From Brachynemurus nebulosus (lineage: Eukaryota > Arthropoda > Insecta > Neuroptera > Myrmeleontidae): a stretch of DNA of 64,000 bases. Under the pieces are notes generated by a model, which worked only from the letters and a program-made list of their open reading frames with translations, did not search any database and was not told the DNA's origin. The translations under genes and the position numbers were made by a program. Location: assembly GCA_035578155.1 (NCBI GenBank), contig JAPWDM010000070.1:144001-208000 (forward strand), given 5' to 3'. Below, in pieces: positions 771 through 62,742 of the stretch. Every line of letters begins with the position of its first letter. The stretch's first letter is position 1.

Positions 771-979
771 TTAATAACTACTTGTTAAGGTATGCTTAAT
801 AGATGATAAAATCATCAAGTGATGTCACAAAATTTACATCTATTTAATAATACGAAAAAATTTGATTTTTCTTTCGTAATAGTGAATTTCCAAAAGAAAA
901 ATATAAATATTTTATAATTAACATTCGGTCATTACTTTAGGAAATTTTTAAAATATTCTTTTTAATATTTTATTTCATA

Positions 980-2215: not shown

Positions 2216-2217
2216 TA

Positions 2218-3459
2218 TATTATTTTTAAAATATAAAATTTGATTATCAGCAGGGCGCGTTATATCTATTTCAAAACAAAGAGACGCCAGTTTAGATTAA
2301 AAATCCAGTTTTATGAACACTGTAAATAAAACACTACCTTACTGACGTCAATAAAGTGAACATTAGATGGAAATTTCGAAAGCTTCTCTAACATTGTAAG
2401 CAAAAATGGAAGTTGTTGTAAAAGTTTTAAGTTTTTCCATTTAATAATTTTATTTATTTACTTCAGCAATGAAACGCTCTGTTCATTTTTATGCAAAAAG
2501 AAGCTGTAAACATTAAAAATAATTGCTACCCAAAGTAAAATTTGATTTATATTGCTTCTAATGAAGAGGTCAAACTCCGAAGTCGACACCTAATTCAATA
2601 ATTTTATTAGTGAAAGGAGGCATTGTCATATATTCTAATATAGATTTTCACAAAGTACCTGTGTAAATCCTTCAAATTTTAATTATTTAATAAGACAAGC
2701 CCCACTAAAAAAAAGCAAAAAAAATATTTTTTAAATGGCACATTTTGATCTAGATATTCCGTTCCCAAAAGTTTAGACAAACACACATGTTACCCTTAGT
2801 ACACATGAGCAGCTTTTGTGATTGAGATATTTTTGCCGCCTCTATCTAACTCGTATGTTAACCATTGTGCTAGAAAGAGGGAGAGAACATTTTTTAACTC
2901 TATCGACATAAATATCTCGATAGAAAAAATCGCCCGGGTGCACTAGATTTAATATGATGTAACGATTACCTACGTCGCTAAATTCATTAACAAACCTTAA
3001 GGAAATTTCAAGAAAAATTGTTGATATATCTTCAGCCAATTTATTTCCCTTTAGCATGTATGTTACAGAAAAATTGCTAAAATAATATTTTAACCGTTGA
3101 CAATATCATATTTTTCAAACCTTACGTTTGGTTACAAATGGAAATGTAGTAGGTATATACCTTCATTTTGTATTCAGAGCAGAAAGCGAAATGATTTTTG
3201 TAGAAGTGCTGAAACACACACCTACCTACACACTCACTAACTTTAATTTTATAAATAAACATTTTCAAAAAATCAAATATTATTAATGGATTGCTGTTCA
3301 TTTCTTTTAAGAAAACAAATTGTGAAGAATGTTTTGTGCAGAAAAATTTAGAGTAAGTGTGAAGAAGTATTTTCTTAGAAATCGTGAATTTAAAATATTA
3401 CCTTTATTAATTTTTAAACAAAAGTAAAATAGAATAAGGCAAAAAATATTTTTTTTCCG
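2218..3459. other. AT-rich DNA without recognised feature
   Basis: I saw no convincing gene, RNA or repeat boundary here. A 71-codon minus-strand frame at 2842-3057 has no recognisable motif and is probably chance. Confidence 0.5.
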
Positions 3460-13839: not shown

Positions 13840-15265
13840 GTACCTATTTAATAAAATATGTACGTGAAGGATACGATACCATTGAAGTAGTCAGTGGCGC
13901 TACACCAATGGAGACGTCATCAAATCACCAAGAAAATATTACAACCAAGCCAACAACGAAATCATCCACTCAATCAGCTTAAGATAAAAGAAAACACTGT
14001 TCCGAATCTGACAGTGACCATGGGCGGAGTCATAAGTACTTGCTAGTGACTCAAAACCGATTTGAACGTCTCTCTGATTCTGACGAGCAAACAGCATCTG
14101 CGAGACCTGGGCCTTCAGCAACCCAAAAAAACCCAGGATCAACGACACCAACATCAAAAATTTCGCCAATCTCATCCACGAATCAGACAACTATCAGAAG
14201 CTCTTAAAGGATCTTAATCGAATTTTAAAGTCGGAGTTCACCACGAAACGGAAAACAAACCAGGTGTTTAAAATTAATTTTCAAACATCATTAGATTATC
14301 GCAACTAAACAGAATATTTCGATACAAATAAAATCAAATATCACTCATTTTGTCCTCCCGATAGTAAAAAATTTAATGTTGTTATGCGCAATGTACCTTA
14401 TGCGCTCTCAGAACAAGAAATATTTGACAAACTAGCTGCAATATACATTGTAACAAAAGTTATGAGATTACTTAATCGTAATAAAAGACCTACTGCCTTA
14501 TGTGCAGTAGAACTAAAGCCAAGTGATCCAAAATCTAAAAGAATTACGCACACTATTTCGAGCTGTAGTGAAAGTAGAACCTAGACGTCAAAGCCAATTA
14601 ATTCCGCAGTGTACTCGTTGTCAAAGATACGGGCATACAAAAAAGTTTTGTAAACTGGACGAGCGATGTGAAGTGCGAAGCATTTCATCACTACTTAAAA
14701 TGTAACAAAGGACGCAACGAAGAACGCAAATGTGTCAATTGTCATGAAAATCACCCTGCCAATTTCAGAGGGTGCATTTACTATCAAAATTTAAAACACC
14801 GATTAACCAACAATAGAACATTTACAAGACAACATGTCCCTTCACAACCGATAAGTCAAAATAATCCCATAAATAGCAATACACCTATAGGACGACCGAC
14901 ATACGCGAACATTACCGCTAACAATATCCCTCCTAGAACTGCCCCCTATCCCAACTCCTAACCATCACAGTTGCCAACAAATTCATTAGCTGAGATAATA
15001 AGTCATGTTATAAAAACCGTGATTGATTTAATTAAACCTCATTTTGAGGCCCTTAAAAACATGTTCATTAGCCAAACAACAAACATATTTAATAATGGAA
15101 AATAAAAGACAAAATCAACTAATCAATAATATCAAAGTATTAAATTGGAACTCAGACGGTATCAAAAATAAAAAGGCTAGTTTATTACATACCTTACAAT
15201 CCGAAGACATTGATGTAGCCTGTGTTACTGCAACGCACTTACAAGTAAACGTCCCGAGGCCGGAC
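13840..15265 (+). pseudogene. 5' part of a dead Jockey-like non-LTR retrotransposon (ORF1 plus start of ORF2)
   Basis: The ORF1 product would bind element RNA; the following ORF would nick DNA and reverse-transcribe. Visible parts: a polar Ser/Thr-rich N-terminal region (13910-14210); a PRE_C2HC/gag-like block around 14384-14570 (VVMRNVPYALSEQEIFDKL); then zinc knuckles, the first being CTRCQRYGHTKKFC (CX2CX4HX4C) near 14610 and the last CVNCHENHPANFRGC near 14730. After a short gap, an endonuclease start follows (VLNWNSDGIKNKK, then VACVTATHL) at 15140-15240. The frames change near 14520 and 14670, so it is a pseudogene. It stops abruptly at ~15265 at a different repeat, with no reverse transcriptase left. 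Confidence 0.82.
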
Positions 15266-15287
15266 CTATCGATTTTGATGAAACTTA

Positions 15288-15745
15288 GATATGTTGTAGA
15301 ACACTAAAAAATAAGCGAAACGTATTTTTCTTTATCGGCGGAAAAACGGTTTGAAGGGGTAAAATCGCCCTCCAAAAATTGGGGTAAAAATTTAATTTTT
15401 TAAATATCTCGAAAACGGTAAGAGATAGAGCAAAAGTTTAAATTGGCGATATTGTTCTTTTTTAAAGAGCTATCTGTTGGTATGCAATTTGTTCAAATTG
15501 TGTCAACAGGGGTGGCTGGGTAAAATTTAGGGGTTAATTTTGCAAAAAGGGGGTGAAAATTAAACAATATAAAAATTTTGTTTACAGATTTGAAATCTAC
15601 GTCAAAAAAATCTAATTGACCTGTTTTTGCTCAATGTCCTAATATTAAGTCTAGGGTTAGTTAACTAGGGGGTGACTGTGTCGACAGGGGTGGCTGGGGG
15701 TTAAAATTTAGGGGTTAATTTTGCAAAAAGGGGGTGAACCTTTTA
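15288..15745. repeat. Dispersed repeat A, copy 1
   Basis: It shares long stretches with 34745-35170 and 52664-53423, including AAAATTGGGGTAAA, AAATATCTCGAAAACGGTAA, AAAGAGCTATCT and CCTAATATTAAGTCTA. The copy at 52664 shows that the family has terminal inverted repeats, so this is a fragment of a MITE-like family. Internally the CAGGGGTGGCTGG...GGGGTTAATTTTGCAAAAAG block is duplicated. It abuts the truncated Jockey copy. Confidence 0.75.
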
Positions 15746-23942: not shown

Positions 23943-25231
23943 TCATATGTTAAAAAGACTTTAGTGGACACTGTACTCACATATTGTAAAAAGAGGGCGA
24001 ATTTATGTATTTTTAATTAAAAGACAAGGTACCTACCTAATATCACGGTAAATATTTTGAAATAAAGTTTCAGAGTGAAAACAATTAGTATAGATCTGTC
24101 TATACTAAATGGAATTAGATTTTATTACATGTATGTACATAGACATAGAAATATAGGAAATATTCTGTCATAAGAAATACTTATAAGAATCATTTAAAAG
24201 TAAAATTAGAGAAAAATCGTTTGAATATTTGGATATTTTTTTTTACTTTTAGTGGTTTGTAACTGTTTAATATAGAACGATATTTTTTTTTTAAATTCAG
24301 ATTTAAATTTAGAATACTCTAATATAATTTTGAAAACTAGCGAATCTGTAGCCATTACTTAACAAAACTGGAGTTGTTACCAAGTTTTTGAAAAAAACAA
24401 ACATTGCGCAATTATAACAGTCAAAAGAATCTGTCATTCTAGATGACTGTTGTAAAAAACAGAATATTTGAAAATAGTTTCCTAAAAATGATATTTTTGA
24501 GATATCTGCTTAGGCTATTGACTATGTACAAAAAAACAGGGGGAAAAGGAACTAATTTGTAACAGGTGTTTTATTGTTTCATATGTTTAGTTGTACCCCA
24601 AAGATGATAAATTCACAAAGTGCTATTAAATTTAGGCGTGCGTTTTTACGAACGGCGTAAACTTATCGACGCTTACGTTTTTTAACTATAACTCAAAAAC
24701 TATGCATTTGTCGTAAATACACATGAGTTTTTGTAGAGAATTAAATTTCCTATCGAAATGGCACTTTATGAACTCAAAAAGCTTTTTTCTCAACAAAATA
24801 AGTCAAAACAATTATTTAAAAAAAAGCTCAAATTTTTCAATTTTTCTTTTTTTTTAAATTTTTGAGTAGTACTTTTTTCTGAGTGAATTTAGGTATAGGG
24901 ATTGGTTCACAAAAAAGAAAGCTGATGTAATTCCCGTCAGAATGGTGACCGATCAAAATATTTTCGATAAAAACCGGCTGAGATACAGTCGTTCAAATTT
25001 ACCTACTTTTTTACAATTTTATTTCTTTTGACTTTTATACCATATTATTTGTAATTTTTACACGCAAAAATTATTTTTATTGAGTACAAACATTATTTCT
25101 GCTTTACCAGAGGTAACGATATAAGTGGTAACGATAAAATTTTGATATTCATATGATCTTAGGTATAAAAAAAAACTTTAATATTGTACTAATTTATAGT
25201 TCTAATTTTTTTTTAAAGTTACGTGTACCTA

Positions 25232-25407
25232 TTATATTTCTCTCATAATGTTTTCAAATTCAGTATCAATTTCTTCATCAACATCGTTTTGGACATCCTC
25301 TTCTGTCATTTCTGGAACATCCCCATTTTCACAATTTAGGCCCATACATTCTTTGCAGAACATGGAGGAGCTAATTCCTATAATTTTCTACAGCCGCAAT
25401 TTACGTA
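25232..25407 (-). pseudogene. Inverted, decayed copy of the cysteine-rich gene end
   Basis: The minus strand encodes the last part of the same protein as the plus copy at 25520-25896: a decayed cysteine block followed by an acidic tail containing DVQNDVDEE and FENIM. The cysteine part is frame-disrupted near 25385. It lies in the left arm of the palindrome and ends at a TAA at 25232-25234. Confidence 0.7.
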
Positions 25408-25519
25408 ATAGAATTAAATCGTAATTTTTCTTTATGGCATTAAGGCCAACAGAGTTTAGGTAGTTCTCGGTTACAACTTTTTCAAAAATTATCAAAAAGC
25501 ACAAAATTTTCTCTAACCA

Positions 25520-25896
25520 ATTTCCCACTAACTTCTGATGCTACTAAATATCACGGTTTAAGGACGTACCACCAAATTCAACAGTGGGAAGGAAATATTT
25601 TAAATCCATTTGAGTGGGGTTGGAAAAAATCTAAAAATGGATTAGTGCCAATTAAAACAACAAAACCTCCTGCACTGCAGAATTTACTGGAACAAATAGC
25701 TTGCGGGTGTATAAAAGGTTGTCACGGAAATTGCAGCTGTAGAAAATTAGGAATTAGCTGCAAAGAATTTATTTGCGAAAATGCGGATGTTACAGAAAAT
25801 TGTGAAAATGCGGATGTTCCAGACATTACAGAGGGAGATGTCCAAAACGATGTTGATGAAGATATTGATATTGAATTTGAAAACATTATGGGATAA
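25520..25896 (+). pseudogene. C-terminal fragment of an element protein with a CXC-like cysteine cluster
   Basis: The open frame continues upstream of the first possible start and is read from about 25520: LTSDATKYHGLRTYHQIQQW, then NPFEWGWKK, then CGCIKGCHGNCSCRKLGISC near 25705-25765, ending in an acidic tail (DVDEDIDIEFENIM). Similar C-termini (SDAA..HSLRVY.Q.Q.W, then a C.C..GC...CSCRK.GL.C cluster) are familiar to me from repeated, uncharacterised insect proteins, and the cysteine cluster resembles the Tesmin/TSO1-like CXC zinc-binding motif. The N-terminus is missing. A short acidic or cysteine segment appears duplicated (CENADV twice). Confidence 0.7.
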
Positions 25897-27059
25897 ATAT
25901 AACAGGTACATTTAATTTTTTTTAAAAAATAGAACTGTAATTTAGTACAATATTAAAGTTTCTTTTTATACCTAAGATCATATGAATATCAAAATTTTTA
26001 GCAAATAATTTTATCGTTACCTCTGATAAATTAGAAATAATTTTTGTACTCAATAAAAATAATTTTTGCGTGTAAAAATTACAAATAACATGGTATAAAA
26101 GTCAAAAGTAATAAAATTGTAAAAAAAGTAGGTAACTTTGAACGACTGTATCTCAGCCGGTTGTTATCGAAAATAGTTCTATCGGTCACCATTCTGACGG
26201 AAATTACATCAGCTTTCTTTTTTGTGAACCAATCCCTATACCTAAATTCACTCAGAAAAAAGTACTACTCAAAAATTTAAAAAAAAAGAAAAATTGAAAA
26301 ATTTGAGCTTTTCTTTAAATAGTTTTTTTGACTTATTTTGTTGAGAAAAAAGTTTTTTGAGTTCATGAAGTGCCATTTCGATAGAAAATTTAATTCTCTA
26401 CAAAAAATCATATCATGTGTATTTACGACAAATGCATAGTTTTTGAGTTATAGTTAAAAAACGTAAGCGTCGATAAGTTTACGCCGTTCGTAAAAACGCA
26501 CGCCTAAATTTAATAGCACTTTGTGAATTTATCATCTTTGGGGTACAATTGAACATATGAAGCAATAAAACACCTGTTACAAATTAGTTCCTTATTCAAC
26601 TACATAGTCAATAGCCTATATAGACTGTGGTACTTCTATTTCCGTCTTAATTTACCTATTTTTTTTTTTTAATTAAAATTGGGACACTGCTGCTGATGGA
26701 TGGCGCGGTCAGCAGTGTCCGGCGGCATCGCCATCGACGCGTATGCGCCGCCAAAACGGGAAAATGATAAAAAGTTTAAAAACGACACATAAAGACAGGA
26801 ACACATAAATGCAATAGACAACGGACAAACACACACATGATAAAATTCACCGATGAGCCCTGTCATCCCAGGGATTCAAAACGAGCGGACAGTCCTTGGT
26901 GGCGGTACGCTAAGTACTAGCCAGAACGTCTGGTCACCAAGGACCGAAAACCAACGATGAAACTCCCTCCGAGGTGTAAAGGGCCCCGGAGTGGAGGAAA
27001 CCGACTACAGACACACAATAATAAAAAAGAATAGTAAGTAAATATCACAGACTACATCA

Positions 27060-27430: not shown

Positions 27431-27690
27431 AAAAACACACAAACGGACAGAAAAACAATAACAAAATAAACTTACTATGTGTTATACTTTTAATTTCAAA
27501 TGTTATCGAGTGCCTGTGAATGATTATTAGTGTATGGCGGATTTTTATCCGTATTTAAACATACACCAATATTCATATGTTCACTCAATGTTCAGCTTTG
27601 GCTGATACTTGAACACTCGATGTACTTTGGCAAATGGCCAATTCATTATGTTAATTAAAATTGACATAGTGTTTGAAAAATTACCAAACT

Positions 27691-27761
27691 GGATCGGCTG
27701 GGACTCGAACCCGGATCTCTTGGTTACCAGCCAAGCGCCTTACCAACTAGGCCACCGATCA
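27691..27761 (-). tRNA. tRNA-Thr-like (GGT) SINE head 1
   Basis: It is 71 nt with a cloverleaf: acceptor GATCGG/CCGATC, D-arm GCC...GGC with TAGTTGGTAAGG, anticodon stem CTTGG/CCAAG with loop CTGGTAA (anticodon GGT), and B box GGTTCGAGTCC. It is part of a SINE, so tRNA function is doubtful. Confidence 0.6.
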
Positions 27762-28038
27762 CTTGTTCGAGTGCCACTCTAATTCAGTAATCAATCAAAC
27801 ACAACCTCTCTCTAATGCGAGACGCAGTTTTATACTTTTAATTTCAAATGTTATCGAGTGCCTGTGAAACATTATTAGTGTATGGCGGATTTTTATCCGT
27901 ATTTAAACATACACCAATATTCATATGTTCACTCAATGTTCAGCTTTGGCTGATACTTGAACACTCGATGTACTTTGGCAAATGGCCAATTCATTATGTT
28001 AATTAAAATTGACATAGTGTTTGAAAAATTACCAAACT

Positions 28039-28109
28039 GGATCGGCTGGGACTCGAACCCGGATCTCTTGGTTACCAGTCAAGCGCCTTACCAACTAGGC
28101 CACCCATCA
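28039..28109 (-). tRNA. tRNA-Thr-like (GGT) SINE head 2
   Basis: Same as the neighbouring heads, with one acceptor-stem change (CCCATCA instead of CCGATCA) and a changed base before the anticodon stem. SINE-derived. Confidence 0.55.
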
Positions 28110-28354
28110 CTTGTTCGAGTGCCACTTTGGCCATTTGCCAAAGTACATCGAGTGTTCAAGTATCAGCCAAAGCTGAACATTGAGTGAACATATGAATATT
28201 GGTGTATGTTTAAATACGGATAAAAATCCGCCATACACTAATAATGTTTCACAGGCACTCGATAACATTTGAAATTAAAAGTATAAAACTGCGTCTCGCA
28301 TTAGAGAGAGGTTGTGTTTGATTGATTACTGAATTGGAGTGGCACTCGAACAAG

Positions 28355-28425
28355 TGATCGGTGGCCTAGTTGGTAAGGCGCTTGGCTGGTAACCAAGAGA
28401 TCCGGGTTCGAGTCCCAGCCGATCC
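28355..28425 (+). tRNA. tRNA-Thr-like (GGT) SINE head 3
   Basis: An intact cloverleaf with A box TGGCCTAGTTGG and B box GGTTCGAGTCC. Mirror partner of head 1. Confidence 0.6.
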
Positions 28426-28702
28426 AGTTTGGTAATTTTTCAAACACTATGTCAATTTTAATTAACATAATGAATTGGCCATTTGCCAAAGTACATCGAG
28501 TGTTCAAGTATCAGCCAAAGCTGAACATTGAGTGAACATATGAATATTGGTGTATGTTTAAATACGGATAAAAATCCGCCATACACTAATAATCATTCAC
28601 AGGCACTCGATAACATTTGAAATTAAAAGTATAAAACTGCGTCTCGCATTAGAGAGAGGTTGTGTTTGATTGATTACTGAATTGGAGTGGCACTGGAACA
28701 AG

Positions 28703-28773
28703 TGATCGTTGGCCTTGTTGGTAAGGCGCTTGGCTGGTAACCAAGAGATCCGGGTTCGAGTCCCAGCCGATCC
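28703..28773 (+). tRNA. tRNA-Thr-like (GGT) SINE head 4
   Basis: Like head 3, but with changes in the A-box region (TTGGCCTTGTTGG). SINE-derived. Confidence 0.55.
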
Positions 28774-29555
28774 AGTTTGGTAATTTTTCAAACACTATGT
28801 CAATTTTAATTACTATGTGTTGTCTTATTTATTAACTAACCATAGCCCCGTTAGCCTGCTAGCCAGCTAGCAGTTACCGCCGAGCACGACGAGGACGAGG
28901 GGTTGGATTTATGCCCGGCATTTACCTAGTTGATGTTGAATTTGTTGTAAATTTCGTTTTCTGTAGGTATGTATAATAACATGATATTTTTGTATTTATT
29001 TTTACATTAAATTTATTAATAATCATAATATAGTCCTGTAAAATATATCTATGAACGTATAGTCTAACAAATCTTTTCAGTTCATAATTCATTGTAGCAG
29101 TTATATGTTTTTGGAAATAATATAACAATATAAATATGCCTTTGTTAGTTGGATTAATGTCATAATCTTACTACATCTGATATAGTGTAGAACCACTATA
29201 ACCTTACTATTTTTAATATAGAACAGCTATAACTTTACTAATTTTGGTATAGAAGTTTGATGGATAAAATTACTGAAGAGGTAAATTGATCTTGATTAAC
29301 AATAGATAAATATAGTTTTTACAATAGTAACAAAATTAAAACGTAGTTCAAATAAATTAAATATTTTTAAATAAATATTGTAATAAAACTTCACGAAAAA
29401 TTTTGATTTCATTAAATAAACCAATATCGTCTTTCAAAGGCTACATTTAAATTTTTGATTTTACAAAATCAGTCGGTGGCACAGGGCCTTCAGAAACGCA
29501 GGACTTGGTGCGGTACACCGTTTGCACCGTTCTCAGGCCGGACTTGCATAATAAC

Positions 29556-40687: not shown

Positions 40688-40693
40688 TATATT
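40688..40693. repeat. Left 6-bp target duplication (TATATT)
   Basis: Identical to 50601-50606, immediately outside the AG...CT ends of the big element. Confidence 0.9.
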
Positions 40694-41139
40694 AGTAGAA
40701 TAGCTGAGCGGGTTCTGGGCCACCGCAAAACGGAGTAACTTGAACCCTTTTGACGATGTTTGAAAGCGTGTGACTTACGGTCCTATTGCACCCATTCTAC
40801 GGTACTACACATTCCGAACTGATGAGTCATCAAACTGTATCGATGTGCAAACCTTGACCTTTGACCCGGCACGTACCGAGTACATGTATTTAAAATTTGT
40901 TGTTGACATTTGACCCCAACACTCGCTCATACTGTTGGCCTTGAAATTCCAAACACATGAGTCATCACCAGCAACCAAATTAATTTATGTTAACCCATTA
41001 TGCGTCATCACAATTTACTTATAACAATTTCATTTTGTGTTAACCCATTACCAGCCAAACCTAACGCATGCGCAGACTGAATTTAAGTACACGACGCATG
41101 CGCAGACTGAATTTTAGGTTACAATTTGATAGATGGGGC

Positions 41140-41640
41140 ACACTACCGCGTCAAAAATGTGGGATTACCCTAACTCGGGGGGTGGCCCCAAATTTTTGAC
41201 ACCGTACTGTACTTAAATTTTTGGTACACTACCGTGTCAAAAGTGCGGGCCCCCCTGACCAAAAAGGTATCCGATCACTTTTTGAAACGTACTGTACGTG
41301 CAAACCTTGACCCCTACGCGCGCTTGCCTTAAGTACGTCATCTTAAACGAACTATCACGTCAAAAAATGTGGGGAATACCCTAACTCGGGGGTGGCTCCA
41401 AACTTTTGACGCCGTACTGTACTTAAATTTTTGGTACACTGCCATGTCAAAAGTGCGGGCCCTCTGACCAAAAAAAGGTATCCGAACACTTTTTGAAGCG
41501 TACTGTACGTGCAAACCTTAACCCCAACACGCGCTTACCTTAATTGCGTCATTTTAAACGAAAGGTACATTACCAAGTCAAAAATGTGGGGAATACCCTA
41601 ACCCAAGGAGTGGCCGCTAAATTTTGCGGGGCACTGTACC
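41140..41640. repeat. Subterminal ~210-bp tandem repeats, left arm
   Basis: Two full units begin at ~41223 and ~41433 (GGTACACTACCGTGTCAAAA / GGTACACTGCCATGTCAAAA), with a partial unit upstream from ~41150. Units carry GTACTGTAC palindromes, TGTGGGGAATACCCTAACTC and GTGCAAACCTTGACCCC blocks. They are GC-richer than the surroundings. Confidence 0.8.
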
Positions 41641-42872
41641 AAGCGCTGGATTTTAAAACCAGACTCCGGGGTCCAGATTTCTGACCGCTACTGTACTGCC
41701 GGAAATCGAGTGTTAACTGTACCTTATGGGGATTTTTGGTATATTTAACCTTGGAAAATTCCAGGAATTTTTATCAGTTTTAAAATAAACAAACAACTAA
41801 TAATTAAATGTTTATTTTAGCTGAATTATGATCATATGACTCATATATGGAGTTTTTTTTGGTATAAGAAAGATGACGTCATGGAATATTAATGAGTTAA
41901 AAAATTGTTTAGTAAAAAATATCACCCATTGTAGGCCTCAAGCAAGAAATTATTTTTATCAGTTTTAATACTTTAACATTTAACCTACAGTGACCAATTT
42001 TTTAGTTAACTAACAAAAGTTCTTGAAATTTTAACAAGTTACAAAAAATATTACTTCTTATGGTGCACAACACTTTTGAATTTGACTGTAGCACAAAACT
42101 GTTTCTATATCAAACGAAAATTATCTGAAATAATTCAGTATGTACATATGTATAGACTCTGTATATTAAAAATATTTTATGTATACACTCTGTATATTGA
42201 GAATAAGAAAGAAAATTTGTATATAATTTTAATTTTTATGAATACTAGTAAACGAATTGTATAGCCATTTATGAATAAGTATTAAATCTAATTATAAAAT
42301 AATTTATAAATATTGCAAAAAATTTGTTTAATCAGCAAAATCAATGTATATCATTTTAATACTGATACATATTTATATTAGGGTATAATCTATAATAGTA
42401 TTGTATTTAACATTTTTAAACAGAATAAAAGTTCAATTTTTGGTTTTAAATTACTATAAACACGTCGCTTAATATAAAAATGATAACAGCATTGAGTTTT
42501 ACTAAATTTTTAAGTCTGTAAAATCAAAATTTTTATAGACTAGAACATTTTGAATTTGATACTTTATCAATCATTAACATATATATAATATCATGTATAT
42601 ATAACTGGTGTATATTTAGTATTTTTAATAAATATTTTAGTATACAGGGTGTATCATGAAATATGCTTTTCAATTAGAATAATAAATTTCATAAGATTTT
42701 TGTTAATACTCTTATTGGTTAACGAAAGAAACTTTTTGCTGTAAAAAAAAATAGGGGAATTCACGGTAATAATTAAATAAAACGCACATATTTTTCTTTT
42801 TTTTTTAAATTTTATTTATAGAATATGTATACAAAAAAATTAAATTGCTTAAATCTATATATTACTAAAAAT

Positions 42873-43347
42873 CTATTTATTTTCCATATAAAATTTTTTT
42901 AAAAGAATACAGTTTTCTAATGAGCAAATTTTATCTGAATGGATCATACAGCGTCTTGAATAATATTCATCTCGCAGATTGGAAATCTTCGGTACATCAA
43001 ATATTTCTTCCAAATTCAAAATCTACGGCTGGTTTTCGGTACCATCAAACAAATTTGAAATCCATTTCTTCTTTTCACCGCCCTTGAAACTTCTTTAATA
43101 TAGGTTTCAATATGGAATGAAGTTTTTTGTACGGAATAAATCCATATGACCAAGGTATCCCATGCCAATTTCGGCAAAGCCAACGTGCAGCAACCCGTTC
43201 ATATTTCTTCGGCAACTCGTTGAAATCAAACGGTGCGTCGAATATAAGATGTAATATTTCATCCGAATTTTCCGCAACGATACCAACTTCTTTAAAATAA
43301 AATTGGTTGTTAGCTCCTTGATAGCCTTGTATGTCAAGAAACGCCAT
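42873..43347 (-). pseudogene. Outward gene 2, left copy: nuclease-like protein of insect mobile elements, broken
   Basis: The frame from 43347 to 43075 (90 residues) begins MAFLDIQGYQ and contains LPKKYERVAARWLCRNWHGI and IPWSYGF. Repeated insect element proteins that I recall share a DIQGF...KEL...H..F..P..F..L....R..V.WL...HGI.W..G pattern, probably a DEDD/RNase H-like nuclease fold; this assignment is inference. After the stop at 43075 the family pattern continues in a shifted frame (GEKKKWI), then an in-frame stop, then a cysteine/histidine C-terminus (RRCMIHSDKICSLENC) ending at 42873. One frameshift plus one stop therefore interrupt a ~155-residue gene. The right arm has the same breaks. 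Confidence 0.6.
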
Positions 43348-43505
43348 TTTTTATCGCCGCTGTAGAACTGAATTTACTCACACAATCCACAACTTTATAT
43401 AAAATAATTAAAATTGGTGAGGATGTTAATTTGTGGGATGTATCCGAAAAAGGATACTAATAGCTATTGCTAGTTGACCATCAAATTACAAACTGTTAAT
43501 AATAT

Positions 43506-43862
43506 TTAGCACATTGGTGCGTACCATGTTCTTTTCACTTTAAGACCTAGTGATTTAAGGAATGCTAAATTTTCGGGTGAAATGTGTTGTCGCTTAAAAG
43601 TTTTACGTTTAATGATCTTAGGTTTCGAAAGTCCTTTGCTAGGTTGTTTAGCGTTGGACTGCTCTGAATTGTAAATTATCATGGTTCGAAATGCAATTGT
43701 TTTACCACGAAATTGTTTTTTCAGCGAAAGTGATGTTAACTCTTTGACAACCACCGGTAAATTGACAATATTTTGTGTAAGTTTAACTAATTTATACCCT
43801 TTAACCATGATAATGTGTGTGAGCCCTTTAACCATGATAAGGTGTATGAGCTCTTTAACCAT
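43506..43862 (-). CDS. Outward gene 1, left copy: small basic protein, unknown function
   Basis: 118 codons, read outward from the array. The first ~20 residues come from three copies of a 27-bp repeat (MVKG motifs), so they may be untranslated. A TATAAA at 43791-43796 (minus strand) lies inside the frame; a transcript started from it would use the ATG at 43682-43684, giving a 58-residue protein. The C-terminus is basic (KRKTFKRQHI) followed by SPENLAFLKSLGLKVKRTW. I recall similar N..FL.SLG.KVK endings in short genes of insect virus-like elements, but cannot name a function. An identical copy lies at 47431-47787. Confidence 0.55.
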   Translation of the reverse strand: MVKELIHLIMVKGLTHIIMVKGYKLVKLTQNIVNLPVVVKELTSLSLKKQFRGKTIAFRTMIIYNSEQSNAKQPSKGLSKPKIIKRKTFKRQHISPENLAFLKSLGLKVKRTWYAPMC

Positions 43863-43875
43863 GATAAGGTGTATG
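43797..43875. repeat. Three 27-bp repeats next to the array, left arm
   Basis: The core TTAACCATGATAA occurs three times at 27-bp spacing, between the 21-bp array and the TATAAA of the outward gene. A further inverted match (TTATCATGGTT) lies near 43675-43686. The position suggests a promoter-proximal control element. Confidence 0.7.
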
Positions 43876-44742
43876 AGTCACTCCGGGGGCAAAATAAGTC
43901 ACTCCGGGGGCAAACTGAGTCACTCCGGGAACAAGATGAGTAACTCCGGGAGCCAAATGAGTCACTCCGGGGGCAAAATGAGTCACTCCGGGAGCAAAAT
44001 GAGTCACTCCGGGAACAAAATTAGTCACTCCGGGAGCAAGATGGGTAACTCCGGGAGCCAATTGAGTCACTCCGGGGGCAAAATGAGTCACTCCGGGAGC
44101 AAGATGAGTAACTCCGGGAGCCAAATGAGTCACTCCGGGGGCAAAATGAGTCACTCCGGGAGCAAAATGAGTCAATCCGGGAGCAAAATGAGTCACTCCG
44201 GGAGCAAAATGAGTCACTCCGGGAGCAAGATGAGTAACTCCGGGAGCCAAATGAGTCACTCCGGGGGCAAAATGAGTCACTTCGGGAGCAAAATGAGTCA
44301 CTCCGGGAGCGAAATGAGTCACTCCGGGAGCATGTGAGTTACTCGTTGGAGTTAAATGAGTCACTCCGGTAGCAAAATGAGTCACTCCGGGAGCAATATG
44401 AGTCACTCCGGGAGCAAAATGAGTCACTCCGGGAGCATGTGAGTTACTCGTTGGAGTCAAATGAGTCACTCCGGTAGCAAAATGAGTCACTCCGGGAGCA
44501 ATATGAGTCACTCCGGGAGCAAAATGAGTCACTCCGGGAATAAAATGAATCACTCCGGGAGTAAAATGAGTCATTCCGGGAGCCAAATGAGTCACTCCGG
44601 GAGCCAAATGAGTCACTCCGGGAGCAAAATGATTCACTCCGGGAGCATGTGAGTTACTCGTTGGAGTCAAATGAGTCGCTCCGGGAGAAAAATGAGTCAC
44701 TCCGGCAGCAAAATGAGTCACTTCGGGAGCAAAATTTGTCAC
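43855..44742 (-). other. Open frame of APGVTHF heptapeptide repeats, left arm
   Basis: 295 codons of near-perfect APGVTHF/APGVTHL repeats are open because 21 bp is a multiple of three and the unit has no stop in this frame. The opposite strand is also open with SHSGSKM repeats (43681-44337). Translation is not shown. The frame runs directly towards the outward genes and its last residues overlap the start of outward gene 1. It is probably a by-product of the minisatellite, but a low-complexity protein cannot be excluded. Confidence 0.4.
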
Positions 44743-44745
44743 CCG
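43873..44745. repeat. 21-bp minisatellite with AP-1-type sites, left arm (~41 units)
   Basis: The unit is GAGTCACTCCGGGAGCAAAAT (rotated and split here only for description; variants differ at a few bases). Nearly every unit has TGAGTCA, the AP-1/TRE consensus; some have TGAGTAA. A higher-order pattern of three units recurs, and a 105-bp block (five units) is duplicated at ~44331-44540. The period equals two turns of B-DNA, so sites face the same side. It also keeps frames open on both strands (SHSGSKM repeats at 43681-44337 + and APGVTHF repeats at 43855-44742 -). Confidence 0.92.
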
Positions 44746-44786
44746 TTGGAGTCAAATGAGTAGCCCGGTGAAGCAAATGAGCTAAG

Positions 44787-44794
44787 TATATATA
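44787..44794 (+). promoter_or_regulatory. TATA-like edge of the left inverted repeat
   Basis: GCTAAGTATATATA ends the inverted repeat. On the right arm the same text (46752-46759, minus strand) reads TATATAAG about 71 bp upstream of the zinc-finger gene's ATG, a plausible TATA box. By symmetry it would start transcripts here at ~44815-44825. Confidence 0.5.
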
Positions 44795-45381
44795 TGAAAT
44801 TGTCTGAACCGGAATCAATGGAGTGGGATAAAATGGATGTTTCAATTGGTGAATTTTTCGAACGTGAACCAATGCTACTGAACGAACTGACTTTGGAAAT
44901 ATTTCTTCAAATCTACAAGTGGATCAGTTTGAATGTGCTGGAAAGTTATGGTGCGAAAATCATACAACGCGCCTGGATTTGGTTACCATCCTATTATCGA
45001 GCCATGTTTCAAGAATGTGAACCATGTTTTAAACATTATAATCGACCATGGCCACAAGATCATATTGATGGACCACCTGGTTTGAAAATTCGCTGTGAAA
45101 TGTGCAAGAATGGCGTGAAAATGGAGGAAAACTTTCAACCGTCCGTTGGTGAACCATTGACATTTGCAACACGGATTTCACACGTTGAAGACATATTTCT
45201 GACTCATCCCTATTTGTATACAAAAGTCAGAAATTTCGATATGTTATTATACTTAACAAAACAACTATTGAAATATGATACTTGGGTGCAACATCTGTAT
45301 GCATATATGATACCCGAATATGCACAACGAATTTGTCAAGTATGGGATCAGTTACCTGAAAACATGAAACAATTACGTTAG
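44794..45381 (+). CDS. Core gene 1: 195-residue protein with two CxxC pairs
   Basis: The frame opens exactly at the edge of the inverted repeat. If TATATATA at 44787-44794 is the TATA box, the first ATG (44794) would be upstream of the transcript, and ATG 44818 (residue 9) or 44833 (residue 14) would be used. C75-x2-C78 and C101-x2-C104 could form one zinc site. KIIQRAWIWL (residues 55-64) resembles an IQ-type helix weakly. The C-terminal half is rich in aromatic residues and predicted helical. No family is recognised. It is unique to the core and runs towards the zinc-finger gene. The frame is intact and codon use is ordinary, so I think it is real. Confidence 0.75.
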   Translation: MKLSEPESMEWDKMDVSIGEFFEREPMLLNELTLEIFLQIYKWISLNVLESYGAKIIQRAWIWLPSYYRAMFQECEPCFKHYNRPWPQDHIDGPPGLKIRCEMCKNGVKMEENFQPSVGEPLTFATRISHVEDIFLTHPYLYTKVRNFDMLLYLTKQLLKYDTWVQHLYAYMIPEYAQRICQVWDQLPENMKQLR

Positions 45382-45700
45382 GGTGTTATTGAATATATAA
45401 ACAAATCATACAATTTTTAATATTTATTTATTGTAAAAAATATTTCATATACATTTATTGTAAAAAATATTACATATACATTTACTGTGAAAATATTTTA
45501 TATTCATACTTATATTTTAAAAATAAAGAACAATAATTATTTACATATATGTGTTATTTATTTGAAAAAAAAAACCTTTTTATCTTACAGGGTTAAAAAA
45601 TATAAAAATAAAATATACACTTCAATGAGGGATAACTACTGCTGCTTCTTATACGGTGGTGTTCTTCAAAATTCAGTAAATTCTTAGTGTGAATAATCAA
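45382..45700. other. Convergent intergenic region with ~28-bp repeats
   Basis: Three copies of a TTATTGTAAAAAATATT-CATATACAT unit lie at 45424-45510, followed by AAATAAAG at ~45520. This AT-rich stretch separates the two tail-to-tail genes and probably holds both polyadenylation regions. Confidence 0.6.
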
Positions 45701-46681
45701 TTAATCAGCATCATCATCATCATAATCGCTAGCATCTTCTTTATCAGTTTCATCCAGATAATCACCTAGTGGTTCAATAACATCAGCCTTTTGAAGTTCG
45801 CGAAGTATAGAGAATATTTCTCGACCAACAGTAGTTTCTTTTAAAGCATTTAACTCTTTGATTAAATCTTCTCGATCGTAAACGTTAAACAACAACATAT
45901 TTTTATTTTCCTCTAAACTTCGAATAATACTGAGTATTTTTTCACCAGTCTCTGAAGTCTCGTATAAACGTTGTAATTCATCTATTAAAGTATTAGGATT
46001 ATGCCAGTATTTTATTTTGTTCGATTGTATGTTAACATTTCTAGACTCTCTCAAGTTGTCTTGCTTAAAATGCTTAGCTAAGACCCCGTTTTCGACATTT
46101 TCATTTGAAGCTATATGACGTTTTAAGCTTATTGGTTTAACCTGATTGACAATTTTCGCTTCATTTTCCGAGTCAGCGTTTCGAACCTCTTTTAACATTA
46201 TAATATCTAAAGCAGTTCCTAGAAGTTTAGTTAGTTGTGAAGAGGAGGTTGTTTCATTGCAATTGTTATTAATTGCTGTTAAGCGATTTACTTGCTTACT
46301 TTCATTAGACCAACTATCTTTCTCGTTTTCAGATTGACGACGGTTTTCTCCTCTTTTCAAAGAGTTAAATTTGGTTTGAATGGCTTCAGTTGCAGCATCT
46401 ATCCTTTTTTGGTCAAACGGATTCAAGATTGCTTCAGAGGAATCAATATAATGCTGTAGTTGAGATGTATTTTCATCATCATTATCATCAAATCTAGATA
46501 TAGGGATATCATCAGGTGTTTTATTATTAGCATCATATGGTATGAATTTGCTTGATGAGTTATCATTCTTTCCAATCGTACCATCATTAATATTGCTTAA
46601 CGAATTATGTTGAGCATTTAAGTGTCTAGAAAGATTAGACTTTCGCGTAAATGCTTTACCACAAAAATCACAATTATACAT
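45701..46681 (-). CDS. Core gene 2: C2H2 zinc-finger protein, 326 residues
   Basis: Residues 4-25 form a classical finger (C4-x2-C7-x12-H20-x4-H25; YNCDFCGKAFTRKSNLSRH). The middle is polar and Asn/Ser-rich. Near the C-terminus are two related helical blocks, LIDELQRLYETSETGEKILS and LIKELNALKETTVGREIFSI, each followed by an LRELQ/RSLEE-type helix, then an acidic tail (DYDDDDAD). One-finger proteins with ILDEL-type helical ends occur, as I recall, in insect Polinton-like elements and related virus-like genomes; the role could be DNA binding or structural. Its start lies 71 bp inside the TATATAAG at the right inverted-repeat edge. The frame is intact. Confidence 0.85.
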   Translation of the reverse strand: MYNCDFCGKAFTRKSNLSRHLNAQHNSLSNINDGTIGKNDNSSSKFIPYDANNKTPDDIPISRFDDNDDENTSQLQHYIDSSEAILNPFDQKRIDAATEAIQTKFNSLKRGENRRQSENEKDSWSNESKQVNRLTAINNNCNETTSSSQLTKLLGTALDIIMLKEVRNADSENEAKIVNQVKPISLKRHIASNENVENGVLAKHFKQDNLRESRNVNIQSNKIKYWHNPNTLIDELQRLYETSETGEKILSIIRSLEENKNMLLFNVYDREDLIKELNALKETTVGREIFSILRELQKADVIEPLGDYLDETDKEDASDYDDDDAD

Positions 46682-46751
46682 AGTTCAGCGGGAGGTCTGA
46701 AGCGTTCGCTAGTAAATGAATAACTGTTCAAAGATTTATTGCTTCTCTACT

Positions 46752-46759
46752 TATATATA
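46752..46759 (-). promoter_or_regulatory. TATA-like promoter element of the zinc-finger gene
   Basis: On the minus strand the text is CTAAGTATATATAAG. It lies ~71 bp upstream of the ATG at 46681, leaving room for a ~40-nt leader. The AP-1-site array begins just beyond it. Confidence 0.55.
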
Positions 46760-46799
46760 CTTAGCTCATTTGCTTCACCGAGCGACTCATTTGACTCCA

Positions 46800-47420
46800 A
46801 CGAGTGACTCACATGCTCCCGGAGTGACTCATTTTGCTCCCGGAGTGACTCATATTGCTCCCGGAGTGACTCATTTTGCTCCCGGAGTGACTCATTTTGC
46901 TCCCGGAGTGACTCATATTGCTCCCGGAGTGACTCATTTTGTTACCGGAGTGACTCATTTAACTCCAACGAGTAACTCACATGCTCCCGGAGTGACTCAT
47001 TTCGCTCCCGGAGTGACTCATTTTGCTCCCGAAGTGACTCATTTTGCCCCCGGAGTGACTCATTTGGCTCCCGGAGTTACTCATCTTGCTCCCGGAGTGA
47101 CTCATTTTGCTCCCGGAGTGACTCATTTTGCTCCCGGAGTGACTCATTTTGCCCCCGGAGTGACTCATTTGGCTCCCGGAGTTACTCATCTTGCTCCCGG
47201 AGTGACTCATTTTGCCCCCGGAGTGACTCAATTGGCTCCCGGAGTTACCCATCTTGCTCCCGGAGTGACTAATTTTGTTCCCGGAGTGACTCATTTTGCT
47301 CCCGGAGTGACTCATTTTGCCCCCGGAGTGACTCATTTGGCTCCCGGAGTTACTCATCTTGTTCCCGGAGTGACTCAGTTTGCCCCCGGAGTGACTTATT
47401 TTGCCCCCGGAGTGACTCAT
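46800..47420. repeat. 21-bp minisatellite with AP-1-type sites, right arm (~29 units)
   Basis: Same unit as the left array, read inverted (TGACTCAT in each). It is about a dozen units shorter. It lies between the zinc-finger gene and the outward genes, so it separates divergent transcription units. Confidence 0.92.
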
Positions 47421-47496
47421 ACACCTTATCATGGTTAAAGAGCTCATACACCTTATCATGGTTAAAGGGCTCACACACATTATCATGGTTAAAGGG
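47419..47496. repeat. Three 27-bp repeats next to the array, right arm
   Basis: ACACCTTATCATGGTTAAAG and variants occur three times at 27-bp spacing and are followed at once by TATAAATT (47497), a plausible TATA box for the outward genes. Confidence 0.7.
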
Positions 47497-47787
47497 TATA
47501 AATTAGTTAAACTTACACAAAATATTGTCAATTTACCGGTGGTTGTCAAAGAGTTAACATCACTTTCGCTGAAAAAACAATTTCGTGGTAAAACAATTGC
47601 ATTTCGAACCATGATAATTTACAATTCAGAGCAGTCCAACGCTAAACAACCTAGCAAAGGACTTTCGAAACCTAAGATCATTAAACGTAAAACTTTTAAG
47701 CGACAACACATTTCACCCGAAAATTTAGCATTCCTTAAATCACTAGGTCTTAAAGTGAAAAGAACATGGTACGCACCAATGTGCTAA
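47431..47787 (+). CDS. Outward gene 1, right copy: small basic protein, unknown function
   Basis: The predicted protein is the same as that of the left copy (43506-43862), read outward. The ATG at 47611 lies downstream of TATAAA at 47497-47502 and is in frame, so a 58-residue product is the more likely one. The C-terminus has KRKTFKRQHI and NLAFLKSLGLKVK. It lies 158 bp upstream of outward gene 2, in the same direction. Confidence 0.55.
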   Translation: MVKELIHLIMVKGLTHIIMVKGYKLVKLTQNIVNLPVVVKELTSLSLKKQFRGKTIAFRTMIIYNSEQSNAKQPSKGLSKPKIIKRKTFKRQHISPENLAFLKSLGLKVKRTWYAPMC

Positions 47788-47945
47788 ATATTATTAACAG
47801 TTTGTAATTTGATGGTCAACTAGCAATAGCTATTAGTATCCTTTTTCGGATACATCCCACAAATTAACATCCTCACCAATTTTAATTATTTTATATAAAG
47901 TTGTGGATTCTGTGAGTAAATTCAGTTCTACAGCGGCGATAAAAA

Positions 47946-48420
47946 ATGGCGTTTCTTGACATACAAGGCTATCAAGGAGCTAACAACCAATTTTATTTTA
48001 AAGAAGTTGGTATCGTTGCGGAAAATTCGGATGAAATATTACATCTTATATTCGACGCACCGTTTGATTTCAACGAGTTGCCGAAGAAATATGAACGGGT
48101 TGCTGCACGTTGGCTTTGCCGAAATTGGCATGGGATACCTTGGTCATATGGATTTATTCCGTACAAAAAACTTCATTCCATATTGAAACCTATATTAAAG
48201 AAGTTTCAAGGGCGGTGAAAAGAAGAAATGGATTTCAAATTTGTTTGATGGTACCGAAAACCAGCCGTAGATTTTGAATTTGGAAGAAATATTTGATGTA
48301 CCGAAGATTTCCAATCTGCGAGATGAATATTATTCAAGACGCTGTATGATCCATTCAGATAAAATTTGCTCATTAGAAAACTGTATTCTTTTAAAAAAAT
48401 TTTATATGGAAAATAAATAG
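47946..48420 (+). pseudogene. Outward gene 2, right copy: nuclease-like protein, broken
   Basis: The first 90 codons (47946-48218) match the left copy exactly. The coding signal then continues one frame over (~48208 on), meets a TAG at about 48268-48270, and reads on to a Cys/His-rich end with RRCMIHSDKICSLENC and the stop at 48418-48420. The two disruptions are shared by both arms, so they arose before the arms were last made identical, or the short 90-residue form is what is used. Family and fold assignment is from memory of similar insect element proteins. Confidence 0.6.
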
Positions 48421-49653
48421 ATTTTTAGTAATATATAGATTTAAGCAATTTAATTTTTTTGTATACATATTCTATAAATAAAATTTAAAAAAAAAAGAAA
48501 AATATGTGCGTTTTATTTAATTATTACCGTGAATTCCCCTATTTTTTTTTACAGCAAAAAGTTTCTTTCGTTAACCAATAAGAGTATTAACAAAAATCTT
48601 ATGAAATTTATTATTCTAATTGAAAAGCATATTTCATGATACACCCTGTATACTAAAATATTTATTAAAAATACTAAATATACACCAGTTATATATACAT
48701 GATATTATATATATGTTAATGATTGATAAAGTATCAAATTCAAAATGTTCTAGTCTATAAAAATTTTGATTTTACAGACTTAAAAATTTAGTAAAACTCA
48801 ATGCTGTTATCATTTTTATATTAAGCGACGTGTTTATAGTAATTTAAAACCAAAAATTGAACTTTTATTCTGTTTAAAAATGTTAAATACAATACTATTA
48901 TAGATTATACCCTAATATAAAATATGTATCAGTATTAAAATGATATACATTGATTTTGCTGATTAAACAAATTTTTTGCAATATTTATAAATTATTTTAT
49001 AATTAGATTTAATACTTATTCATAAATGGCTATACAATTCGTTTACTAGTATTCATAAAAATTAAAATTATATACAAATTTTCTTTCTTATTCTCAATAT
49101 ACAGAGTGTACACATAAAATATTTTTAATATACAGAGTCTATACATATGTACATACTGAATTATTTCAGATAATTTTCGTTTGATATAGAAACAGTTTTG
49201 TGCTACAGTCAAATTCAAAAGTGTTGTGCACCATAAGAAGTAATATTTTTTGTAACTTGTTAAAATTTCAAGAACTTTTGTTAGTTAACTAAAAAATTGG
49301 TCACTGTAGGTTAAATGTTAAAGTATTAAAACTGATAAAAATAATTTCTTGCTTGAGGCCTACAATGGGTGATATTTTTTACTAAACAATTTTTTAACTC
49401 ATTAATATTCCATGACGTCATCTTTCTTATACCAAAAAAAACTCCATATATGAGTCATATGATCATAATTCAGCTAAAATAAACATTTAATTATTAGTTG
49501 TTTGTTTATTTTAAAACTGATAAAAATTCCTGGAATTTTCCAAGGTTAAATATACCAAAAATCCCCATAAGGTACAGTTTACACTCGATTTCCGGCAGTA
49601 CAGTAGCGGTCAGAAATCTGGACCCCGGAGTCTGGTTTTAAAATCCAGCGCTT

Positions 49654-50154
49654 GGTACAGTGCCCCGCAAAATTTAGCGGCCACTCCTTGGGTTAGGGTA
49701 TTCCCCACATTTTTGACTTGGTAATGTACCTTTCGTTTAAAATGACGCAATTAAGGTAAGCGCGTGTTGGGGTTAAGGTTTGCACGTACAGTACGCTTCA
49801 AAAAGTGTTCGGATACCTTTTTTTGGTCAGAGGGCCCGCACTTTTGACATGGCAGTGTACCAAAAATTTAAGTACAGTACGGCGTCAAAAGTTTGGAGCC
49901 ACCCCCGAGTTAGGGTATTCCCCACATTTTTTGACGTGATAGTTCGTTTAAGATGACGTACTTAAGGCAAGCGCGCGTAGGGGTCAAGGTTTGCACGTAC
50001 AGTACGTTTCAAAAAGTGATCGGATACCTTTTTGGTCAGGGGGGCCCGCACTTTTGACACGGTAGTGTACCAAAAATTTAAGTACAGTACGGTGTCAAAA
50101 ATTTGGGGCCACCCCCCGAGTTAGGGTAATCCCACATTTTTGACGCGGTAGTGT
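49654..50154. repeat. Subterminal ~210-bp tandem repeats, right arm
   Basis: Mirror image of 41140-41640. Confidence 0.8.
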
Positions 50155-50600
50155 GCCCCATCTATCAAATTGTAACCTAAAATTCAGTCTGCGCATGCGT
50201 CGTGTACTTAAATTCAGTCTGCGCATGCGTTAGGTTTGGCTGGTAATGGGTTAACACAAAATGAAATTGTTATAAGTAAATTGTGATGACGCATAATGGG
50301 TTAACATAAATTAATTTGGTTGCTGGTGATGACTCATGTGTTTGGAATTTCAAGGCCAACAGTATGAGCGAGTGTTGGGGTCAAATGTCAACAACAAATT
50401 TTAAATACATGTACTCGGTACGTGCCGGGTCAAAGGTCAAGGTTTGCACATCGATACAGTTTGATGACTCATCAGTTCGGAATGTGTAGTACCGTAGAAT
50501 GGGTGCAATAGGACCGTAAGTCACACGCTTTCAAACATCGTCAAAAGGGTTCAAGTTACTCCGTTTTGCGGTGGCCCAGAACCCGCTCAGCTATTCTACT

Positions 50601-50606
50601 TATATT
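50601..50606. repeat. Right 6-bp target duplication (TATATT)
   Basis: Identical to 40688-40693. Confidence 0.9.
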
Positions 50607-62040: not shown

Positions 62041-62742
62041 AAAAAATTTGGGGGACAGGTCTACCCACACTGTCAACTTCCCATTGGGTGTCCTTAAAGA
62101 CTAGAGACTACTTAAATAATAAATAATTCGTTTTTCATTTCAGGCGACTCCTCCCCTGGGCCGCCGATAGAGGCTTTGACCCTTGCACCATACGGGGGGC
62201 TTCGCCTTCTGTACCTAAGGGTAGGGGCTCCACCCTTATCAAACAAATTATAACATCCTTTGGTCTCAAGATATATGCGAGACCAAAATATATTTCAAAA
62301 AAAGTTTCTTACTTCGTTTTTTTTTCTTTTTTTTTTTAATTTTATAATAAAATACTAGCGTTTTTAACATCAAGGAAGGTTCTTAGGCCATTATATAATA
62401 ATGTTATGGTAAAAAATCCATATAATCTATGTTATCTTAATAAAGTTAATTCCGTTTTTTTACCACAAAAAAACAAACCGCTAATCCGAATTTACGGAAA
62501 GCTTTATCCGGTCTTCATTTTTTGATTACGCATCTAATGAAATTAGTTGATATCATCATTTGTTCTCGAGATATGCGAGACGAAAAAAAATTCACGAACG
62601 AACGAACTAAAGAACGCACACACAGACATCACGCTAAAAACGATGGATTCGGATTCTAGCGACCTTGAAACGTGGAGATTTTTCAAAATTAGCGATTCGT
62701 AAAATCGGACCCATTACAATAACTTCCTATGGGATATAAGCA
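62041..62742 (+). repeat. Dispersed structured repeat, copy 2
   Basis: A full-length partner of 61-770, same orientation, with the same GC-rich stem (AAGGGTAGGGGCTCCACCCTT region, split stem AAGGGT/ACCCTT) and the same tail (ATTACAATAACTTCC). Differences are mostly single bases and short indels. Confidence 0.8.

Follow-up and report, generated by a model that had tools for sequence, protein, structure and literature searches.

A palindromic, non-autonomous Polinton derivative in Brachynemurus nebulosus, with one parental end probably doubled by copy-back

A 64,000-nucleotide stretch of the genome of the neuropteran Brachynemurus nebulosus (assembly GCA_035578155.1, contig JAPWDM010000070.1, positions 144,001 to 208,000; hereafter the window) carries a mobile element that has the ends of a Polinton (also called Maverick) and consists mostly of two giant inverted repeats. 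The question raised by this locus is how such an element came by arms of that size. It spans 40694..50600 (9,907 bp, 5'-AGTAG...CTACT-3'), and its ends, AGTAGAATAG...CTATTCTACT, lie inside a perfect 6-bp target-site duplication, TATATT (40688..40693 on the left, 50601..50606 on the right). We class the element among the non-autonomous derivatives of Polintons, with a new architecture and a new inferred origin: it probably derives from a complete Polinton of the same genome, one end of which was doubled by copy-back, and it is predicted to use the proteins of that complete element, here called the helper. The initial annotation, whose span of 40688..50606 takes in the duplications, had read the TATATT repeats and the AG...CT ends correctly. 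It had also proposed a non-autonomous relative of Polintons, and this is supported by the complete Polintons of the same genome, which share the ends, the arm sequence and part of a core gene.

Structure of the element

The left arm (40694..44794, 4,101 bp) ends at a rearranged junction and would be the copied-back arm. The right arm (46752..50600, 3,849 bp) runs into a zinc-finger gene just as it does in an un-rearranged 11.6-kb copy found elsewhere in the genome, and is presumably the original one. Between them lies a core of 1.96 kb with two open reading frames (ORFs), of 195 and 326 aa. The early estimates of ~4.1 and ~3.85 kb for the inverted repeats and <2 kb for the core were thus close to the measured values. 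At its inner end each arm carries a tandem array of a 21-bp unit (~41 copies at 43873..44742 on the left, ~31 copies at 46765..47420 on the right). Over the 3.18 kb outside these arrays, only 3 substitutions and one 1-bp indel separate the arms, and what differences remain between them are mostly in array length. No gene for a family B DNA polymerase (PolB), retroviral-type integrase, capsid, ATPase or protease was found in the element, whether among its ORFs, by Pfam, or by comparison with the helper.

The complete Polinton of the same genome

The genome searched comprises 960 Mb in 138 contigs. It contains six copies of 16.6–17.0 kb that share the ends of the window element, and PolB and integrase were located in all six; these are the autonomous relatives that the initial annotation had proposed to look for. 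ORFs were listed for two of them, L009+L010 (kept as separate pieces) and L019+L020, which have the same gene set. The former encodes a 1,165-aa PolB, an integrase (rve, E 4e-15) with a chromodomain-like tail, a double-jelly-roll capsid protein (Pfam, 6e-123), an A32-type ATPase (Pfam, 3e-10) and a PLA2-like protein (9e-13). A 251-aa gene adjoins PolB, while a 161-aa gene adjoins the opposite end. A 126-aa ORF without a Pfam match is putatively protease-like by its motifs. Beside the ATPase gene there is a tandem array (L009 7394-7867, with a counterpart in L020) that translates as repeated VRFDRN and is, by eye, unlike the 21-bp array of the arms.

Direct Pfam, PHROG, NCBIfam and PDB scans did not name the helper PolB as a polymerase, and its identity is therefore based on its homologues. 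Of 7,976 scored candidates, 7,272 reached E<=0.001. Those with names among the 120 listed are insect proteins, many with PF03175; one, from an adintovirus of a Megastigmus wasp, is annotated as PolB and is 61% identical. At least 40 full-length copies of PolB are present at 98–100% identity, and 35 of these 40 best candidates have no internal stop. Damaged helper copies also occur (one with a stop in PolB, one with PolB broken, one with the 251-aa gene interrupted by a stop). Four of the six helper copies have inverted repeats of 1,055–1,056 bp at 99.6–99.9% identity, a fifth has repeats of 1.24–1.26 kb at 96%, and in the sixth they are mismatched past ~600 bp.

Both arms correspond to one helper end

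Positions 1-2726 of the element, in both arms, match one and the same helper end, that of the 161-aa gene (93.7% identity over 2.77 kb). The 11.6-kb copy (L026/L027) provides the un-rearranged order, which runs from one end through a 161-aa-type gene, a 122-aa ORF, the 21-bp array, the zinc-finger gene, a 251-aa-type gene and PolB to the other end. Its PolB has a stop, its inverted repeats are only 1.23 kb, and it is without an integrase. Followed from its right end, the window element keeps to this order through the zinc-finger gene as far as the middle of the 251-aa gene, and past that point it returns through the array and arm to the same terminus. Judged by this homology and gene order, the arms are a single parental end doubled in inverted orientation, and the PolB end has been lost. 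Six further long-arm copies were examined, and they too have neither PolB nor integrase.

The point of rearrangement, here called the founding junction, lies at 44790..44800, where the arm meets a truncated helper gene. The 195-aa core ORF (44794..45381, + strand) is the middle of the 251-aa gene of the helper (97.3–98.3% identity), cut mid-frame by the junction, and in all seven helper-type copies the 251-aa gene is uninterrupted at this site. In the satellite copies the truncated gene is relaxed, with a pN/pS of 0.40 vs 0.09 in helper-type copies. The initial annotation had supposed that the element was gene-exchanged and had a two-gene core of its own; this is upheld for the 326-aa zinc-finger ORF, which has no match in the autonomous element, and fails for the 195-aa ORF.

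Small changes aside, the founding junction is found in 22 of the 23 copies examined of the type A zinc-finger gene (ZnF-A), leaving out the 11.6-kb copy; the remaining copy, L047, gave no match. A 24-base pattern for the junction, with two degenerate positions, has 213 matches genome-wide and its control none. Since the junction is common to so many copies, a single founding event followed by amplification is indicated. Among 100 of the 213 junction places there are six inverted pairs within 6 kb.

Copies and target-site duplications

The exact 28-bp terminus of the element occurs 31 times in the genome (0 for the reversed control pattern), as 15 inverted pairs and one single end whose partner has one mismatch, giving 16 elements. 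Fourteen of them were read (all but those at C103:910875 and C84:50462747), and these comprise seven long-arm elements, that in the window included, six of 16.6–17.0 kb and the one of 11.6 kb. With three more elements whose terminus has diverged (AGTAGATAGGCTA...), the complete copies number 17. Exact 6-bp duplications flank all 17, that in the window included, although for one of them the ends were placed by hand at an AGTAG motif, this being one of four possible pairings that yield matching duplications. TATATA occurs twice among the duplications, and the window element has TATATT; all three lie in TA-rich DNA and carry little weight as evidence. The search for further copies and their duplications, suggested at the outset, was thus productive, and no complete copy examined lacks the 6-bp duplication on which the Polinton assignment had been staked. 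The AG(T)...(A)CT termini within inverted repeats, present in copies of the family, fall in the motif range given in the available part of PMC8097293; the exact (AGT)2 or (AG)3 terminal repeats given in the same part are absent from the ends of this family.

Six elements reached by way of the zinc-finger gene (L053-L058) bear the other terminus (AGTAGATAGGCTA...), which means that the 16 elements counted by the 28-bp terminus are only a small part of the family. At C84:50462746-50501489, family termini pair 38.7 kb apart with a stop-free PolB inside, perhaps as a nested or composite element.

Other turn points and a second lineage

Four other elements turn back at sites different from the founding junction. 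One, d7.9 (L021), is a near-pure palindrome that turns inside the zinc-finger gene, with a loop of ~140–150 nt and a 9-bp inverted microhomology (one mismatch) at the turn. Another, L051, has the founding junction and turns a second time, leaving the arm for the 251-aa-type gene, at an exact 6-bp microhomology; its stem is 100% identical over the 1,212 bp read. The other two turn in the 251-aa-type gene. L050 has a 48-bp scrap of that gene within its 191-nt loop, and L052 has a 67-bp perfect scrap of PolB within a 94-nt loop, its stem being 100% identical over the 1,851 bp read. Within the sequence read, the five turn points differ and fall on one and the same side. Zinc-finger matches less than 5 kb apart are always inverted (three pairs in the A list, which were fetched, and four in the B list), and no doubled PolB end was found, no two of the best 40 scored PolB matches being close together. 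The suggestion that the element was possibly a new subfamily therefore understates the case: its arms are one doubled parental end, PolB and the other end are gone, and other turn points exist.

A second lineage, type B (L022 and L024), has a different zinc-finger protein of 288 aa together with a 120-aa ORF. Its arms match the end of the helper copy o16 at 98.8–99.0% over ~2.64 kb, on both sides. An un-rearranged form of type B was not found, which leaves its junction undefined. L022 and L024 are distinguished by a deletion at a CCA repeat. In both, the 120-aa ORF (starting MSEQHGVELSISDLW) looks OB-fold-like by eye and is without a Pfam match.

The arms change together

In five long-arm copies (the window element, d7.9, h9.9, L024 and L022) the two arms of an element differ by a mean of 0.06% per block, with a maximum of 0.42%. 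Between different long-arm copies the mean is 3.7% (0–9.4%), in a patchwork pattern. Private variants were scored in a set of 13 copies; in the five long-arm copies 42 are in both arms and 7 in one arm (both/one: window element 8/3, d7.9 19/2, h9.9 14/1, L024 0/0, L022 1/1). A second tally of the five, confined to long-arm copies and positions 950-3170, gave 33 in both arms and 5 in one. The arms of a 10.7-kb copy, k, which stands outside the 13-copy set, are 99.9% identical over 4.18 kb.

The same is seen in a single gene of the window element. Each arm has a 90-aa remnant (starting MAFLDIQGYQ) of the 161-aa terminal gene of the helper, at 43075..43347 (- strand) in the left arm and 47946..48218 (+ strand) in the right. 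A short deletion and a copy-specific stop break the frame, identically in both arms; the stop occurs in none of 12 other aligned copies, and intact copies of the 161-aa gene are present elsewhere in the genome. When 26 ends, amounting to 12 distinct sequences, were placed in a tree by their first 440 bp, the two ends of most copies grouped together or tied; the ends of b16 and j17 did not come together, and resolution was low.

Two copies, n9.7 and the helper j17, have arms or repeats that differ markedly except over the last 200–440 bp, suggesting recombinants caught before full homogenisation.

The zinc-finger gene

The 326-aa ORF (45701..46681, - strand) has one C2H2 finger (Pfam, E 4e-6), the sole Pfam match among the ORFs of the window. 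Among the best-scoring of ~3,000 matches there are at least 123 copies of ZnF-A at 96–100% identity, of which 113 contain no internal stop, and at least 135 copies of the type B gene (ZnF-B), also at 96–100%, 129 of them without a stop; such lists of best scores are biased towards intact copies. The dN/dS ratio is 0.66 among 24 A copies (two partial, one with a stop) and 0.63 for A vs B, with a lower value of 0.45 in the C-terminal part. Because both lineages have kept a zinc-finger gene while losing the genes for replication, integration and capsid, a role for it in the spread of the element itself is suggested by the comparison.

Other searches added little. Against PHROGs, the only match below 0.2 from the ORFs of the window was a weak one (E 6.5e-4, a family of unknown function) over the finger. 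The 195-aa and 90-aa ORFs found no matches in protein searches, nor did the 195-aa ORF in Pfam; IMG/VR scans with three proteins confirmed nothing, and PDB look-ups gave nothing useful.

Origin of the doubled end

The proposal of a copy-back origin starts from features that are plain in the assembled genome: the homology of the arms, the junctions, their recurrence, and the concerted arms of most copies. Polinton replication as protein-primed linear DNA has, to our knowledge, been deduced from gene content and not observed. Strand-displacement replication of this kind would be the setting for copy-back template switching. A nascent strand starting at the left end would run through the array and the zinc-finger gene into the helper gene, then release, re-anneal to the complementary strand and copy back to its own terminus. 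The product would have two identical ends, each with an origin and an integrase site, separated by a short unique loop, the core. With an end on either side that the helper recognises, such a molecule would be replicated and integrated in trans. The displaced single strand would fold into a panhandle of ~4 kb, and copying or repair across its stem would keep the arms identical. We infer both the replication as linear DNA and the dependence on the helper; homogenisation may have taken place before or after insertion. The zinc-finger protein may, speculatively, act on the ends or arrays of its own element. Copy-back would account for the doubling of the same end, the varied loops, the inverted microhomology, and the scraps of PolB and of the helper gene at the turns.

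Several points weigh against this reading. The founding junction has a microhomology of only 0–1 bp, and templated scraps occur in chromosomal break repair too. L050-L052 were read only at the centre and at both ends. The arms of n9.7 (L023), a copy with the founding junction, are unequal (by as much as 6.7% per block), and its private variants are 20/13 (both/one), or 5/17 in the second tally. In the helper j17 (L017/L018) the inverted repeats differ by 8–9% beyond 440 bp, with private variants of 1/11. These two mosaics mean that homogenisation is not universal. For the other helper-type copies the private variants are few and favour neither side consistently (b 0/1, c 2/1, e 0/0, i 1/1, o 6/2, a11.6 5/2). 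Constraint on the zinc-finger gene is only moderate by the substitution ratios, and dependence on the helper is predicted from the shared ends and the lost genes. An extrachromosomal form, a terminal protein or a replication intermediate was not observed, the assembled genome being the only material used.

The alternative of most consequence is chromosomal break repair or gene conversion, in which a lost PolB end was rebuilt from the other end of the same or another copy, with a tract reaching past the inverted repeat, and later conversion kept the arms identical. Repair copying arm onto arm could give the same end products, and the patchwork exchange of arms between copies, with the mosaics n9.7 and j17, is what it would leave behind. 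A model of this type is set out for the extension of terminal inverted repeats (TIRs) in Galileo in the available part of PMC3573991, where extended inverted repeats of Galileo are described and expansion is said to have been reported for Polintons, with three references that include a 2007 review of repetitive sequences. Nevertheless we consider this origin unlikely: the five turn points differ, and those parts that were read place them all on one side; the loops of 94–191 nt go with short inverted microhomology or inserted scraps of PolB and the helper gene; and the founding junction is present at different sites with different duplications, so that the structure is transmitted by transposition. 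Replication based on repair is still compatible with the turn points, the loops and the transposed junction.

An ordinary gene-exchanged Polinton subfamily, whose long inverted repeats are ancestral and functional in an unseen long-arm autonomous element, would explain why ZnF lineages A and B both have long-arm copies (at least 123 and 135 scored copies of the gene). It is nonetheless a very improbable explanation, as all seven PolB-bearing copies read (six of 16.6–17.0 kb, one of 11.6 kb) have inverted repeats of no more than ~1.26 kb and the junction cuts a helper gene mid-frame; the best 40 scored PolB matches are all apart, although this was no exhaustive search of the genome for long-arm PolB elements. 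A transposon of the Foldback or Galileo type (P-element superfamily) also has long arms with internal tandem repeats, going by the available part of PMC3573991. Such an identity is barely conceivable here, with duplications of 6 bp, not 7 bp, in 17 of 17 copies, with AG ends, and with arms homologous to a Polinton that has PolB and integrase. Long palindromes are difficult to assemble, yet an assembly artefact is scarcely credible in view of the 138-contig assembly and of several complete copies with different sites, duplications, arm lengths and loops.

A wider picture may be considered, to which we give slightly less than an even chance. Animal Polintons would shed copy-back satellites much as replicating viruses do, repeated fold-backs on protein-primed, strand-displaced linear DNA giving rise to palindromic genomes with a zinc-finger gene of their own, which parasitise, and maybe outnumber, the complete element in the germline. 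The junctions would then be a fossil record of Polinton replication.

Relation to known systems

With Polintons and the insect adintoviruses the window element shares AG ends, 6-bp duplications, terminal and arm sequence, and a gene fragment. It differs from them in lacking PolB, integrase, ATPase and capsid and in having an extra zinc-finger ORF, and its arms of 3.8–4.1 kb compare with at most ~1.26 kb in the autonomous copies read. Copy-back (snapback) defective genomes are known from negative-strand RNA viruses; snapback DNAs of adeno-associated virus and defective adenovirus DNAs are further examples. The window element is like copy-back defective genomes in that one end is present, in complementary form, at both ends, with a unique loop between the points of breakage and rejoining, and in that the opposite end and the replication genes are lost. 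It is unlike them in being DNA, in its kilobase arms, and in forming a multi-copy transposon family of the host genome with a private gene.

Galileo and Foldback of Drosophila resemble it in their long, internally repetitive inverted repeats, in copies with extended or recombinant TIRs and no transposase, and in chimeric copies. Foldback duplicates 9 bp of its target. Galileo and Foldback differ in belonging to the P superfamily, with 7-bp duplications in Galileo and TIRs of ~0.3–1.2 kb as given in the available part of PMC3573991. Teratorn is likewise a virus-derived mobile element with long inverted repeats around a unique region; as far as the available text of PMC6431247 describes it, it is a herpesvirus/piggyBac composite of 41–182 kb with unrelated gene content. 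In intact vertebrate Mavericks, the inverted repeats measure 46–1,447 bp, with a mean of 402 (available part of PMC8097293). Palindromic or copy-back Polintons were not found in the literature searched, as judged by titles and the openings of abstracts, and no paper contained any of six set phrases that would denote a Polinton as non-autonomous, defective or truncated.

The family offers a helper and satellite pair within one genome, and suggests how satellites with kilobase inverted arms could arise from a virus-like element. Giant inverted repeats could, on this evidence, be a product of replication rather than a transposase feature. The turn-back junctions with loops of 94–191 nt (three elements), microhomology and PolB scraps are the trace that would be expected of protein-primed replication of linear DNA. 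Palindromic linear DNA would be a testable signature in an animal genome with many near-identical helper copies.

Other features of the element and the window

Each arm of the element contains a 211-bp tandem repeat (41142..41602 on the left, 49732..50152 on the right) and a 118-aa ORF (43506..43862, - strand, and 47431..47787, + strand). By eye, the 118-aa ORF resembles the C-terminus of a 259-aa ORF of the helper, apparently fused to another segment. Several other features are found elsewhere in the window. ORF fragments at 14309-15307 resemble, by eye, a broken non-LTR retrotransposon. At 24543-26597 there is an inverted repeat of ~800 bp (92.8% identity), possibly another mobile element; a cysteine-rich ORF (25444-25896) lies between its two copies and partly overlaps them. 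Two stretches some 61 kb apart, at 61-766 and 62042-62734, form a direct repeat of 85.7% identity. Finally, four tRNA-Thr(GGT) genes, two per strand, lie at 27479-28812 in inverted copies of 98–99.8% identity, forming a small tRNA palindrome.

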